A DNA stretch of 53,913 bases, from the NCBI GenBank assembly GCA_947623225.1, contig CANQGO010000012.1:1-53913 (forward strand), written 5' to 3'. Each line of letters begins with the position of its first letter. Position 1 is the first letter of the stretch. Below the pieces are notes generated by a model. That model was not told the DNA's origin. It made no database searches and worked only from the letters and a program-made list of their open reading frames with translations. Origin of the DNA: an uncultured Clostridia bacterium. GTDB taxonomy: Bacteria > Bacillota > Clostridia > Christensenellales > CAG-314. Of this stretch, positions 7,795 through 53,913 are shown in pieces. A program made the position numbers and the translations under genes.

Positions 7795-9120
7795 TTATTT
7801 GTCCGTCAGACTTGGACTCTGCAGCCTGAGTGCCGCCTTGTAGTCGAACCAAGGATAGTTGACCCATTTGCCTCCGCCTATGCGGTACACTTCTTCCACA
7901 GCCAAAGACCAGCGCATGCAACTCGGGCTATCCGGTATAAAACTCAGAAATTCGCCGCTGGCATATGTGTAGAAAAAGCTTCCGTCTACCGGCAAGCATA
8001 TAGTGGGTATAGCCTCGCGCGGAATGAATAACGTCAATGCCTGCCCGTCTCGAGTACCCGTATACGTCATTCCTTCTCTGTCCAGATGCAGTGTGCCGTC
8101 TCCGACAGGCAGAGCGACCTTATTGTGTCTCAGATACCCATACTTGGGCATCATACTGAGCGTAACGTGCTCTTCCAGAACAAAATTCGGATCAGATACT
8201 GCCTTACACATCTCACGACGCTGCCAATCGAACCATTCGCGCGGGTTTACAGGTATCAGACTGCCTTCTGTGGGCACAAGATTGTATTTGTCGTCCAGCG
8301 TAGCCGCGTTGCCGCAGTGCTTGCACTGTATCTTGTTCCCTCTACCTTCCATTTGCATCTCTGCTCCGCACTTGGGACACTTATACAGTATCTGCTCCAT
8401 ATTCTCGGCATAGTTGCCGTCTTTGCGGTTGTAACTGTTTTGACGAGAGGAATTCCAATCATAATCGTCGCAGAACAATTCCTTGTCCACCTTCATCTGC
8501 ACTTCGTCAGCAGTCATCTCGTGCAATTGCTGCGGATTGAACATCTCAAACAGTTCCACTTCTACCTTACCAAAACGTTCCTTGACGTCGAACTTGGGGC
8601 ACACAAGGTATCCGCCGTGTATGCGCACGCCCAGTACATGAACGCCGAAGTGCTTCAGCATCTTGCCCGTACCTATCATGGATGGTTGCTGTGCACCGCT
8701 GGCGGTACTCATGCCGCAGGGGAATATCGCCACACAACCGTTTTTCTCCTTACGCAATATCTGCGCCATACCGCGTATCGTCTTGGTATCGGGGACAAAA
8801 TTCCGTTTGGGAATGACATGACCTATGCGGAAGATGAACTTGAACTTGGAGCGATGAAATTCATTCTCCGCCGCAACGAAGTTGATAGGGCGGCGTTTCA
8901 TAGCAAAATTGACAAATGCGTAGTCGAATCGCGACGCATGATTCGCGACTATCAACACAGGTTTATCTTTGTAGTCATCCAGGTCGACCGTTCGATTGAT
9001 CTCCACCTTGCAAGGGCGAAAATACACCCAACGTGCCACACGGCTGAGTACGGCATTGATGAAGCCGTTGACTTTTTTGATTTTTACGGATTTTACTGCT
9101 TGGTCGGTAGTTTTCTTCAT
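7795..9120 (-). CDS. PlsC-like acyltransferase with zinc ribbon and conserved C-terminal beta-rich module
   Basis: A 441-residue protein. Residues about 25-215 are a 1-acylglycerol-3-phosphate acyltransferase-type (PlsC) domain with the catalytic motif NHASRFD at 60-66 and a FPCGMSTASG substrate loop. Residues about 245-270 are a CPKC...CKHC zinc ribbon. The last 120 residues form a beta-rich module (LHLDREGMTYTGT ... CMRW) that recurs, clearly homologous, in the 646-residue gene at 10773. PlsC enzymes acylate lysophosphatidate in membrane phospholipid synthesis. What the zinc and C-terminal modules do is unknown; a PH-like fold is only a guess. It has its own promoter and terminator. The ribosome site is weak (AGAAAG). 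Confidence 0.8.
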   Translation of the reverse strand: MKKTTDQAVKSVKIKKVNGFINAVLSRVARWVYFRPCKVEINRTVDLDDYKDKPVLIVANHASRFDYAFVNFAMKRRPINFVAAENEFHRSKFKFIFRIGHVIPKRNFVPDTKTIRGMAQILRKEKNGCVAIFPCGMSTASGAQQPSMIGTGKMLKHFGVHVLGVRIHGGYLVCPKFDVKERFGKVEVELFEMFNPQQLHEMTADEVQMKVDKELFCDDYDWNSSRQNSYNRKDGNYAENMEQILYKCPKCGAEMQMEGRGNKIQCKHCGNAATLDDKYNLVPTEGSLIPVNPREWFDWQRREMCKAVSDPNFVLEEHVTLSMMPKYGYLRHNKVALPVGDGTLHLDREGMTYTGTRDGQALTLFIPREAIPTICLPVDGSFFYTYASGEFLSFIPDSPSCMRWSLAVEEVYRIGGGKWVNYPWFDYKAALRLQSPSLTDK

Positions 9121-9181
9121 AAATCTTTCTCTTTCGGATTTGATTTACCGTAATATGTAATATATTTAATTTGTTATTACA

Positions 9182-9210
9182 ATTATAACATATTTTATCT
9201 GTTCAGGCAA
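9182..9210 (-). promoter_or_regulatory. sigma-A promoter of the 441-residue acyltransferase
   Basis: Minus-strand TTGCCT (9205-9210), 17 bp, TATAAT (9182-9187). It lies in the short space after the YfcC-type transporter gene. Confidence 0.6.
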
Positions 9211-9228
9211 GACATACTAAAAAATTTA

Positions 9229-10776
9229 TCAATATCCTATAGACGAGGCGAGCAACAGAACTGCCACGGTGAATAACAGCATAGTCAACTGTAACCCCCA
9301 CGTCCACTTGACCCATTTGCCGTAGGAGACATTCGCCATAGACAAGCCTATAAGCAATACGGGATTGGTTGGAAGTATCATATCCGTAAAACCGTCTGCT
9401 ATACAGTATGTGAGTATGACCAATGTAGAAGATATGCCCAACGCCTGAGATATTGGCAATACGATAGGCAACAGCAAGAATATCTTGGCAGAAGCGGAAC
9501 CTATGAATATCTGCAAAAACAGTATGAGCGCGTACAGCAGCAATACTATAATAAATTTGCTGTGTATACGATTCAAACCGGAAATGACATAATTCATCAC
9601 CGTATCCAACACATTGCTCTCCGCAAGTATCAGTTTGACACTGCTCGCCATGCCTATCAACAATACGGCAGGGATCATAGACAGCACACCTTTGCCAAAC
9701 CACACGAATACTTTCTTCGGTTTGTCCACCAACAGACCGGATACAAGTCCGCCTATAAGGAAACTTGCTGCAAGTATCGGTATAGCATAGTCGCTTATCG
9801 CACGTATGGCGGCTATACATACCAAAAGCACCAACTGTACCGAGAAAAATATCGCATATACGACAAAGAGTCTCTTATCCCGAGCCGTCTCTTGCCGTAC
9901 ACTCAGATCCAGCTGAGTAAGTTTCTCACGATCCACGTCATAACTGGGCGACTTGGACGGGTCCTTTGTGATGCGACGAATGTGCAAGACCAGAAATCCT
10001 ATGACAATAGCATATACACATATGAAGAATACCGCTCTCAGCCAGACTCCGTCTATCACACCTATACCGGCGAATTGGGACGCCAGACCCACGGAAAACG
10101 GATTGGTGATAGCGGCGGAGAAACCGAAACATGCCGCCATCATGCATACGCCCAACCCTGTCATGGTATCAAACCCCAGTGACAGCATAAACACTATCAT
10201 GATGGGCAGCAACGTCACCAATTCTTCGAACATACCGAAGAAACTGCCAAACGCCATGAATATCAGCGTCGCCACGCATATCACCAACATACGGCGTTTG
10301 CCGCACTTGGCAACCACCTTACGAATGAATACGGAAACGCCTCCCGTTTTCTCCATTATATTGAATACGCCGCTCATCACCAACAAAAATACGCTTATCA
10401 TGATGATAGTTACAGCATCGGAGGACGCGAATACTCTTATCGGAGCAGTCACCACTTTCCAGAATGGTATGCCTTCCGTCTTACCGCGCACGTATGTGTC
10501 GGGAATTATCGCACCTTCAGCGTCTCGCTCGAAACTGCCTTGCGGTATGAAGTAGGAGATCAGCCCGCTACACAGAATGATGGCGGCAAGCAAAGATACC
10601 ACCGTCACAAAAGATTTGACGCTTATAGAGGAGAATGAGCGTTCTACCCCCCCCCGTATGACTTTTTTACGGTACAGGAGTATTCCGATAACCACCACTT
10701 CCGCAATAAGTGCCAAGCCGAATACCCAACTCAATACAGTATCGGCTATACTTGTCAACAATAAATCAACTCTCAT
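9229..10776 (-). CDS. YfcC-family (C4-dicarboxylate-carrier-like) membrane transporter
   Basis: A 515-residue polytopic membrane protein with 11-13 hydrophobic segments. It matches the YfcC/DcuC-like (PF03606) pattern, with NIMEKTGGV and VGLASQFAGIGVIDGVWLR mid-protein and the late GSASAKIFLLLPIVLP and ADGFTDMILPTNPVLL helices. Proteins of this family are secondary carriers, often for dicarboxylates, amino acids or peptides; the substrate is unknown. A frame 28 codons longer exists, but the ATG at 10774-10776 overlaps the stop of the upstream TVP38-acyltransferase gene (ATGA), implying translational coupling, so it is preferred. A run of nine G residues lies at codons 41-44. Confidence 0.8.
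   Translation of the reverse strand: MRVDLLLTSIADTVLSWVFGLALIAEVVVIGILLYRKKVIRGGVERSFSSISVKSFVTVVSLLAAIILCSGLISYFIPQGSFERDAEGAIIPDTYVRGKTEGIPFWKVVTAPIRVFASSDAVTIIMISVFLLVMSGVFNIMEKTGGVSVFIRKVVAKCGKRRMLVICVATLIFMAFGSFFGMFEELVTLLPIMIVFMLSLGFDTMTGLGVCMMAACFGFSAAITNPFSVGLASQFAGIGVIDGVWLRAVFFICVYAIVIGFLVLHIRRITKDPSKSPSYDVDREKLTQLDLSVRQETARDKRLFVVYAIFFSVQLVLLVCIAAIRAISDYAIPILAASFLIGGLVSGLLVDKPKKVFVWFGKGVLSMIPAVLLIGMASSVKLILAESNVLDTVMNYVISGLNRIHSKFIIVLLLYALILFLQIFIGSASAKIFLLLPIVLPISQALGISSTLVILTYCIADGFTDMILPTNPVLLIGLSMANVSYGKWVKWTWGLQLTMLLFTVAVLLLASSIGY
10647..10655 (-). repeat. homopolymeric G9 tract inside the YfcC-type gene
   Basis: Nine consecutive G on the coding strand (codons CGG GGG GGG GTA) lie between the first and second hydrophobic segments. 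Slippage by one base would truncate the transporter soon after, so this is a possible phase-variation tract. Confidence 0.8.
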
Positions 10777-12713
10777 TTGTTCTGACCCTGTCGGCACAAA
10801 AGTATGCTCGCCATATACCACTTGACGCAAGTGCGCTTGTCGGGCGGCACAAAGTACCAAAAATGCTCTCCTTCGTATATCTCGAAATCTTCATCCGCAC
10901 CGAACAGCAGACGATATATAGACGAGATAGGGAAGAACTTGGTGATCTGCTCTTCGCCGTCTGTACCGGTATATGTCAGTCCTTGCCTATTGAATACACA
11001 TTCGCCCTTGCCGGCACACGTCAGCTGCTTGCCGCCGCCTATGGACTCATGGTACAATGTGACCTCGTCACGCAGTTCGAATTCGGGATCGGCGTCTATC
11101 TGCTCTTGCATCTGCGCCAATTGCCAGTGGTACCACTGTTGGTGATTGTCGAAATGGCGGACGGACGAAGTGAAGTTGTATCTGTCGTCCACAGTGTCCG
11201 TGTAGCCGCACTCGCTGCACGTGATGGTGTTGCCCTGTGTGGTGAGAGTGAATTCTTTGCCGCATTCGGGGCAACGGTACAGTATATTTTCCAAACCCTC
11301 GGCGAGATCGCCCTGAGGATAATGCATATCGGGATGCTCTGCCAGCCAGTCAAAATCGTTGTAGTCCAGTACGTCCAGCACACGCTGTTCGAACTGCTCG
11401 AGAGTATCTTTGACGCTCTCGCCCTTAGCATAGAGCAGGCTCAGCTCCGCCTCCACCGTAGAACCGCGACGGATATAACGCTTGTTGTTTTTGCGAGCCC
11501 ACTTGGGCATGGCAAGGTAATCTCCGCCGAACTTGATGGTGTATATAGCGGCATTGGCACCCATCTTGCGCAGGAAACTCATAGTCCCCGGCTGAATATC
11601 TTCGAAGTCGCCCGCAGTGGACAGACGTGCCTCGGGGCATATGACCAATACGCCGTCATTCTTTATAACAGTCAGGCAATTGCGTACATTTTCCACGTCT
11701 GCGCTGAACATACTCTTGGGAATACAACCCAGACGTTTCAACAGATTGCCCAACTTTTTCTCATAGAAGTACTGCCGCGAACTGACAACGTGCGGCTTCT
11801 CCTTGCTGAGTAACATGGAAAAGTACATGAAGTCTATAAAAGAACCATGATTGCACAGCACCACGGCAGGTCTTTCCAATTTGTCAATATCATTACGCTT
11901 TATCTTGCACTTGACGCGTCGTCTCAACCAACACTTCAATCCTGCGAACATGATGGCGTTGAAAAATGCGTTTGGTTCTTTTACCTTGGTAGCGGAAGTA
12001 TAGTTGAATTGCTTCTTGGCAAAGCGGTTGAGCCAGCTAAATACCTTCGCACGAAACACATACAGCATCACTATCGCGACTATCAAGACGGCAAGTATCA
12101 CTAATGACACTATCCAATTGTTTGTGCTTATGTGACCCAGCAATACGCCTATCATTACCGACGGCAATGCGCCCAACGTTGTCAAAATGATATACTTGGG
12201 GTAACGAGTATTCAAAGATGCCGTGAAAAAACATATAAGCCCGTAAGGTATCGCCGGCAGGAAATACAGTATGAAGATAAGTAACGCCACCCTTTTGGAA
12301 CTGCGCAGTACGTCGAAGTCTACCTCTATCTTTTTCTGGAAATATTCTCCGAGCCTGTTACCGTATACCTTATACAGTATATATATGACCGTATTACCTA
12401 TGAATACTCCTGCCATACATATACCTAAGCCGATCCACGGTCCATAGGATATGCCCGCCAACACCTGCACAGGCTCTGCCGGCAAAAATGTCAGCACCAC
12501 TTGCAGCATGGACAACGATCCGAACACCACCATGCCCTTCCAGCCTAGTGACTGTACGTCCTGCAGTATCTGTTCTATCGGTGCTCCGCCGAATATGTCT
12601 ACGATAACGCGCCTGTTGTCTCCGCTGAATAGCAAAGCCAGCAATCCCGCCAACAGCAACACAAACACAACACCTGTAATGATTCTTCGTTTAAGTTTCT
12701 TTGTCTTGACCAT
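10773..12713 (-). CDS. TVP38/DedA-type membrane domain fused to PlsC-like acyltransferase, zinc ribbon and C-terminal module
   Basis: A 646-residue multidomain protein. Residues about 10-30 are one hydrophobic segment. Residues 55-220 match the TVP38/TMEM64 (VTT/SNARE-associated) membrane domain (FLPAEPVQVLAG, YFLPAIPYGLICFFTA). Residues about 255-470 are a PlsC-like acyltransferase with NHGSFID at 288-294. Near 500-525 lies a CPEC...CSEC zinc ribbon. The rest is a beta-rich module homologous to that of the gene at 7795. VTT-domain proteins include lipid scramblases/flippases, so a protein that both moves and acylates lipids is an inference. It is translationally coupled to the YfcC-type gene. 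A weak promoter (TTGAAA, 17 bp, TAATAT) may lie just upstream. Confidence 0.82.
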   Translation of the reverse strand: MVKTKKLKRRIITGVVFVLLLAGLLALLFSGDNRRVIVDIFGGAPIEQILQDVQSLGWKGMVVFGSLSMLQVVLTFLPAEPVQVLAGISYGPWIGLGICMAGVFIGNTVIYILYKVYGNRLGEYFQKKIEVDFDVLRSSKRVALLIFILYFLPAIPYGLICFFTASLNTRYPKYIILTTLGALPSVMIGVLLGHISTNNWIVSLVILAVLIVAIVMLYVFRAKVFSWLNRFAKKQFNYTSATKVKEPNAFFNAIMFAGLKCWLRRRVKCKIKRNDIDKLERPAVVLCNHGSFIDFMYFSMLLSKEKPHVVSSRQYFYEKKLGNLLKRLGCIPKSMFSADVENVRNCLTVIKNDGVLVICPEARLSTAGDFEDIQPGTMSFLRKMGANAAIYTIKFGGDYLAMPKWARKNNKRYIRRGSTVEAELSLLYAKGESVKDTLEQFEQRVLDVLDYNDFDWLAEHPDMHYPQGDLAEGLENILYRCPECGKEFTLTTQGNTITCSECGYTDTVDDRYNFTSSVRHFDNHQQWYHWQLAQMQEQIDADPEFELRDEVTLYHESIGGGKQLTCAGKGECVFNRQGLTYTGTDGEEQITKFFPISSIYRLLFGADEDFEIYEGEHFWYFVPPDKRTCVKWYMASILLCRQGQNK

Positions 12714-12793: not shown

Positions 12794-12825
12794 TAACAAA
12801 AACGCGCACCACTATGGGTGCGCGT
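12794..12825 (-). terminator. intrinsic terminator of the foldase-like lipoprotein gene
   Basis: A 9-bp stem (ACGCGCACC at 12802-12810 with GGTGCGCGT at 12817-12825) is followed on the minus strand by TTTTGTTATT. It lies 15 nt after the stop. Confidence 0.8.
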
Positions 12826-12839
12826 CGCTTATGTCGATA

Positions 12840-53506: not shown

Positions 53507-53512
53507 TATATT

Positions 53513-53588
53513 TGGAGCTACTAACCGGATTTGAACCGGTGACCCCGTCCTTACCAAGGACGTGCTCTACCTGCTGAGCCCTCAACCG
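53513..53588 (-). tRNA. tRNA-Thr(GGU)-like sequence, copy 1
   Basis: The D arm (GCTC-AGCAGGTA-GAGC), anticodon arm (CGTCC-TTGGTAA-GGACG, anticodon GGT, threonine), T arm (ACCGG-TTCAAAT-CCGGT) and an encoded CCA (53513-53515) are canonical. The 3' acceptor strand TAGTAGC needs GCTACTA at the 5' end, but the sequence there is unrelated (CGGTTGA), and bases 8-9 are GG rather than TA. It may be a 5'-altered pseudo-tRNA produced by tandem duplication. Confidence 0.5.
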
Positions 53589-53639
53589 AGCGATCAGCGA
53601 ACGTCGGCTCAGCGGATACGAAGAATTCGACAATATGCG

Positions 53640-53670
53640 AAAAAAAGAACTATCGCACACGCGATAGCTC
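53640..53670 (-). terminator. terminator after tRNA-like copy 2
   Basis: On the minus strand GAGCTATCGC and GCGATAGTTC pair (one G-U) across GTGT and are followed by TTTTTTT. The same hairpin recurs 163 bp on. Confidence 0.75.
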
Positions 53671-53675
53671 TTTTT

Positions 53676-53751
53676 TGGAGCTACTAACCGGATTTGAACC
53701 GGTGACCCCGTCCTTACCAAGGACGTGCTCTACCTGCTGAGCCCTCAACCG
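53676..53751 (-). tRNA. tRNA-Thr(GGU)-like sequence, copy 2
   Basis: Identical to copy 1, including the unpaired 5' acceptor strand and the encoded CCA. Followed 6 nt later by its own intrinsic terminator. Confidence 0.5.
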
Positions 53752-53802
53752 AGCGATCAGCGAACGTCGGCTCAGCGGATACGAAGAATTCGACAATATG
53801 CG

Positions 53803-53833
53803 AAAAAAAGAACTATCGCACACGCGATAGCTC
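53803..53833 (-). terminator. terminator after tRNA-like copy 3
   Basis: Same hairpin as at 53640-53670, one repeat unit further on. Confidence 0.75.
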
Positions 53834-53838
53834 TTTTT

Positions 53839-53913
53839 TGGAGCTACTAACCGGATTTGAACCGGTGACCCCGTCCTTACCAAGGACGTGCTCTACCTGC
53901 TGAGCCCTCAACC
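53839..53913 (-). tRNA. tRNA-Thr(GGU)-like sequence, copy 3, cut by the window edge
   Basis: Same as copies 1 and 2 as far as visible; the expected final base lies just outside. Whether this copy has a true 5' acceptor strand cannot be seen beyond the repeated bases. Confidence 0.45.

Follow-up and report, generated by a model that had tools for sequence, protein, structure and literature searches.

Layout of the locus

The window (the whole analysed stretch of 53,913 nucleotides) belongs to a genome of 1.48 Mb in 52 contigs, which is estimated to be 92% complete. On its minus strand, a SurA-like gene is followed by the gene for a 646-aa fusion protein, a YfcC/DcuC carrier, a 441-aa protein related to the fusion and MurJ/SpoVB. 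The features of this region are:

14879-12840, minus strand: gene for a SurA-like protein (open reading frame and profile matches)
12801..12826, minus strand: terminator-like hairpin that separates the SurA-like gene from the fusion gene (pattern match only; the region has no more such hairpins than chance would give)
10773..12713, minus strand: 646-aa VTT-PlsC-zinc ribbon-PH-like fusion (open reading frame, Pfam, AlphaFold model)
12132..12485, minus strand: VTT/DedA domain, residues 77-194 of the fusion (PF09335)
11541..11882, minus strand: PlsC domain, residues 278-391 of the fusion, with HX4D at H289/D294 and motif III PEARLS (Pfam, alignment, fold match to 5kym)
11199..11279, minus strand: zinc ribbon CPEC...CSEC, residues 479-505 of the fusion (sequence, alignment)
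10776..11078, minus strand: predicted C-terminal PH-superfamily module, about residues 546-646 of the fusion (model, fold matches)
10773..10776, minus strand: ATGA overlap of the fusion stop and the carrier start (sequence)
9229..10776, minus strand: YfcC/DcuC-family carrier, 515 aa (Pfam PF03606, NCBIfam, gene neighbourhood)
9182..9210, minus strand: promoter-like site ahead of the 441-aa gene (pattern match only; 10 of 12, extended TG)
7795..9120, minus strand: 441-aa PlsC-zinc ribbon-PH-like paralogue (open reading frame, Pfam, alignment)
7687-6137, minus strand: MurJ/SpoVB gene (open reading frame and profile matches)

The carrier is likely to start at the ATG at 10776, within the ATGA overlap, rather than at the TTG given by the ORF finder, and the promoter-like site would be consistent with separate transcription of the 441-aa gene. 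At the contig end, positions 53511-53913 of the window hold a perfect 163-bp tandem repeat in 2.5 copies, which gives three tRNA-like Rfam matches (none of them called by ARAGORN) and could be a degenerate tRNA array, or else an artefact of assembly at the contig end.

Domains and predicted structures

Both proteins exceed the PF01553 gathering score of 23 (42.9 bits for the 646-aa and 40.5 bits for the 441-aa protein), and the larger also carries a VTT domain (PF09335, 57.4 bits at a cut-off of 33.9, model positions 1-122 of 123), which is the sole match to this family in the whole genome assembly. They align with 27% identity over 418 columns (E 3e-49), spanning the PlsC domain, the ribbon and the C-terminal module. 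A preliminary description made from the letters alone had proposed two acyltransferases with these three shared parts, one of them joined to a VTT domain, and this arrangement, including the homology of the C-terminal modules, is borne out. Both proteins have the HX4D motif and the full set of four ribbon cysteines; in an alignment of 60 sequences the catalytic His is invariant and the Asp is kept in nearly all, while the four ribbon cysteines are invariant. Nearly all fusions have PEARLS or PEGRLS as motif III. In the 441-aa protein it is FPCGMS, where a Cys replaces the Glu of PlsC enzymes and of the fusion's PEARLS; orthologues such as L018 and L026 show the same replacement, so this group may differ in its activity or specificity.

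Neither protein reaches the cut-off of 102.95 for TIGR00530, the 1-acylglycerol-3-phosphate acyltransferase model (30.3 bits for the 441-aa and 19.5 bits for the 646-aa protein). The best NCBIfam matches of both include acyl-[ACP]-phospholipid O-acyltransferases, no OlsA model was matched in the same search, and a Pfam scan of the 646-aa protein found neither an MFS nor an AMP-dependent acyl-ACP synthetase domain. Synonymous sites are saturated, so that only dN could be read for a dN/dS comparison; its low values (about 0.10-0.27) are consistent with constraint on all four domains but do not amount to a formal test.

Profile searches say little about the C-terminal module: among six that were scanned, five had no Pfam match up to E 10 and the sixth a single weak and unrelated one, with HMMER filters limiting sensitivity. 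An AlphaFold model of the ribbon and module (61 sequences, mean pLDDT 95.5) shows a seven-strand barrel that is preceded by one helix and capped by another at the C terminus. Its best Foldseek match is the PH domain of ARAP3 (E 7.4e-4, probability 1.00), VIA gives Z scores of up to 11.6 over 99 residues at an rmsd of 2.6, and almost all of the VIA matches listed are of PH-superfamily types (PH, EVH1, Ran-binding, FERM-F3). As modelled, the fusion's C-terminal module is a PH-superfamily fold, so that an earlier guess of PH/GRAM was right at the fold level for the larger protein; the fold does not imply a ligand. In the full 646-aa model (pLDDT 91.8, pTM 0.77), the acyltransferase part matches Thermotoga maritima PlsC (5kym), GPAT1 and PatA, and no solved VTT fold is among the top structure matches.

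Distribution of the VTT-PlsC fusion

A genome scan yielded 57 loci, nearly all in Clostridia MAGs, and most have source names that point to gut samples of rabbit, goat, deer, sheep, yak or buffalo. At 48 of them the VTT, PlsC, ribbon and PH-like parts lie in one open reading frame of about 570-725 aa. The join, which might have been peculiar to this contig, is thus kept in relatives, and an assembly or frameshift artefact is ruled out by 48 continuous reading frames from separate assemblies. No relative was found in viral contigs, and a plasmid search gave one weak match, to the VTT part only. At four loci (L071, L074, L076, L096) an opposite-strand gene upstream of the cassette encodes a protein of about 2,530-2,620 aa. 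As to the literature, no open-access paper describing the PlsC-VTT architecture was found, which is weak evidence, as few subscription papers were covered.

Five unfused proteins (L097, L098, L099, L103 and L116) nest among the fused ones in the tree and have kept the carrier, with no VTT in the DNA fetched for these loci, while L016 holds a split version with a separate VTT gene directly 3′ of the acyltransferase gene. The VTT domain was probably lost about five times while the pairing of acyltransferase and carrier persisted, a count that comes from a quick tree with unsure deep branches. Flipping by the VTT domain would therefore be accessory, the domain appearing dispensable in several lineages.

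The carrier as partner and the 441-aa protein as resident gene

The carrier matches PF03606 (DcuC/YfcC) with 211 bits at a cut-off of 23.1, and reaches 181 bits with the YfcC equivalog NF008611, far under its cut-off of 500. ORF calling places it immediately after the acyltransferase gene, on the same strand, at 46 of 54 loci, and tblastn added it at L091, L100, L115 and L116, which brings the count to 50 of the 57 loci, or 50 of the 55 that can be evaluated for a directly downstream carrier (at L101 and L104 contig ends cut off the downstream region). No third neighbour family is fixed, except among the closest relatives of the window and in a few small groups of related loci; the next commonest occurs at eight loci with scattered offsets. 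Across 61 related genomes the carrier is present in 10 of the 11 with a fusion against 8 of the 50 others (Fisher p 5e-6, uncorrected for kinship), and in half of those eight (G009, G015, G016, G022) it adjoins an unfused PlsC-ribbon-PH gene. The carrier and acyltransferase trees have many subclades in common. Annotation gives YfcC as a putative antiporter of basic amino acids, and in C. difficile a YfcC-type carrier of uncharacterised function is preceded by a lysine riboswitch and accompanied by an M20D amidohydrolase (PMC11477304).

The 441-aa protein behaves differently. Genus members that have no fusion (L018, L019, L021, L024, L026, L028) carry its orthologue at the same site, flanked by the SurA-like gene and MurJ, and at L063 and L066 the fusion and carrier are found at other places, without the 441-aa gene. 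An obligate partnership is thereby ruled out, and the pair looks to have been inserted beside a resident gene. The unit envisaged in the preliminary description (fusion, smaller acyltransferase partner and coupled YfcC-type carrier) consequently stands in part: the coupling of fusion and carrier is upheld by their adjacency and matching subclades, while the 441-aa member has to be given up as a resident of the SurA-like/MurJ site.

OlsB-like neighbours and lipid context

OlsB forms the N-acyl amino acid, to which a second chain is then added by OlsA, an enzyme of PF01553; the two genes usually lie side by side (PMC11631085). An OlsB-like gene lies upstream of the fusion at L101 and L117, overlapping it by ATGA, and directly before an unfused family member at L012/L013/L107. 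Their products are over the PF13444 cut-off and match NF052554, the model for L-ornithine N-acyltransferase, with E values of 8e-50 and 2e-34, though below its equivalog cut-off. In G032 an OlsB-like gene is the divergent neighbour of a ribbon acyltransferase. At none of these OlsB-linked loci (two lineages and the one divergent neighbour) was a carrier found beside the gene. No OlsB-type gene is found beside the acyltransferase genes of the window, and the genome's own OlsB-like gene (L180; G000:C7, 1135-1869 of the locus) is unlinked to them. Within the order, PF13444 genes turn up only here and there (in 28 of 396 genomes, many of these with weak partial matches), most of its OlsB-like genes are not adjacent to a PlsC-ribbon gene, and 7 of the 11 fusion genomes, at 92-98% completeness, show no PF13444 gene. 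OlsB as a general companion is ruled out, as it is present in only 4 of these 11 genomes and usually unlinked.

Elsewhere the genome of the window encodes PlsY and two further short PlsC proteins, and the one short PlsC gene that was read has the canonical motif FPEGTR. Ordinary phosphatidate synthesis is thus covered, which rules out the fusion as the sole acyltransferase of that pathway. No DUF368-type flippase was found in this genome. Across the genome and 15 sampled genus members (G000-G015), VTT/DedA occurs only in the fusion genomes and in G009, and DUF368 in none, which leaves the undecaprenyl phosphate flippase of most of them unaccounted for.

Proposed function and alternatives

The fusion of probable lipid-flipping and lipid-building parts, almost always beside the same carrier, suggests that the pair serves, in compact form, the synthesis or repair of a membrane lipid, perhaps one based on an amino acid. 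From sequence we infer the enzymatic activity, the flipping, the acceptor and the carrier substrate alike; a single chain that flips and acylates a lipid, as was first proposed, is plausible from the domains. In the general scheme, which we consider probable, a lyso-lipid acyltransferase works with the carrier, usually together with a lipid-moving domain. More specifically, (i) the PlsC domain would lie at the cytoplasmic face, with the VTT membrane domain, the ribbon and the PH-like module holding it there, (ii) it would add an acyl chain to a lyso lipid, one that has a single chain, (iii) the VTT domain would move the lyso lipid or the product between leaflets and (iv) the YfcC/DcuC-type carrier would provide either the acceptor itself or the soluble head group. 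The likeliest acceptor would be an N-acyl amino acid (a lyso-aminolipid), O-acylated by the enzyme in the role of OlsA.

This acceptor was not considered in the preliminary description; the OlsB-like neighbours suggest it and, together with the pairing of OlsB with OlsA, the genome's own unlinked OlsB-like gene and the annotation of YfcC as an antiporter, favour an OlsA-like role in which the carrier supplies acceptor or head group and VTT moves lipid. A two-gene lipid-assembly unit of fusion and downstream carrier, most likely with an N-acyl amino acid as acceptor, is accordingly proposed tentatively, at somewhat less than even odds. The aminolipid version of the scheme taken by itself is possible rather than probable: it is weakened by the fusion genomes that have no PF13444 gene, by the small number of linked cases beside mostly unlinked OlsB-like genes, by the lack of a match to an OlsA model and by a carrier score far below the YfcC equivalog cut-off. 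A variant that we consider quite unlikely is salvage, where the carrier would import N-acyl amino acids of neighbouring gut microbes, PlsC would add the second chain and VTT would distribute the product. In related operons the OlsB-like enzyme would then replace the carrier as the source of the acceptor, which would explain why the two are not found beside the same gene.

The main rival to the aminolipid reading is the reacylation of lysophospholipids, in analogy to LplT-Aas, where VTT would flip them inward or scramble them, PlsC would restore a diacyl phospholipid, and the carrier would be unrelated or supporting. There is precedent for such a division of labour, since LplT flips, Aas reacylates, and the two interact and are fused in some bacteria (PMC11416262); the acyl-[ACP]-phospholipid O-acyltransferases among the best matches of both proteins fit it as well, lysolipids are presumably plentiful in herbivore guts, and the B. 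subtilis DedA protein PetA is reported, in a passage of PMC12893004 that cites the finding, to be a phosphatidylethanolamine transporter. We nevertheless regard rescue as rather unlikely: the fusion has neither the MFS nor the acyl-ACP synthetase domain, and rescue explains neither the OlsB-like neighbours nor the retention of the carrier despite repeated VTT loss.

Less likely still is another acceptor, such as a glycolipid or a cell-wall lipid carrier, with VTT recycling undecaprenyl phosphate or the glycolipid. The DedA family includes many flippases of undecaprenyl phosphate (PMC10127716, PMC12893004), and the fusion holds the only VTT domain of a genome in which the DUF368 type was not found. 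However, most sampled fusion-less genus members lack both domains, so these families do not fill that role there, and the folds matched are those of PlsC and PatA, not that of one specific glycolipid enzyme. It is similarly doubtful that fusion and carrier are linked by gene order or mobility alone, as a cargo pair with separate functions. While the different genomic places of the pair do resemble those of a mobile cassette, the genes lie on the same strand and overlap or nearly so, both trees have matching branches, and the pairing is retained in unfused clades.

If the lipid-assembly reading is true, a DedA/VTT lipid mover and a lipid-completing enzyme are coupled in one polypeptide, which would make it a clean system for identifying VTT cargo and for studying the coupling of transfer to chemistry, with lineages that have the acyltransferase-carrier pair without VTT as natural deletion controls. 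The substrates of YfcC-type carriers would become easier to approach as well, and an OlsA-like step would be placed in gut Clostridia; a survey places OlsBA in proteobacteria and some actinobacteria (PMC12493201).

Comparison with known systems

OlsBA shares with the family a PlsC-type O-acyltransferase of PF01553 and, in two lineages, an OlsB-like gene directly upstream, as in the usual adjacency of olsB and olsA (PMC11631085). The genes of the window differ in having no adjacent OlsB and no OlsA model match, in the extra VTT, ribbon and PH-like parts and in the carrier as partner.

MprF performs head-group aminoacylation rather than acyl-chain transfer, and its flippase domain differs from VTT. 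Like the fusion as proposed, it combines in one polypeptide the synthesis of a modified lipid with its transfer across the membrane (PMC11980842). DedA/VTT domains fused to PAP2, rhodanese or pyridine-nucleotide oxidoreductase likewise join VTT to an enzyme; the paper describing them mentions no acyltransferase fusion, and the word ‘acyltransferase’ is absent from its main text (PMC10127716).

In LplT-Aas, as in the fusion, a lipid-moving membrane part and a PlsC-type acyltransferase come together in one operon or chain, the flippase and the acyltransferase forming a complex and sometimes being fused (PMC11416262). The protein of the window has VTT instead of MFS, has no acyl-ACP synthetase domain, adds the zinc ribbon and PH-like module, and has a DcuC/YfcC carrier as its partner. 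The missing MFS and synthetase domains place it outside the LplT-Aas group, which is nonetheless its nearest working analogue.
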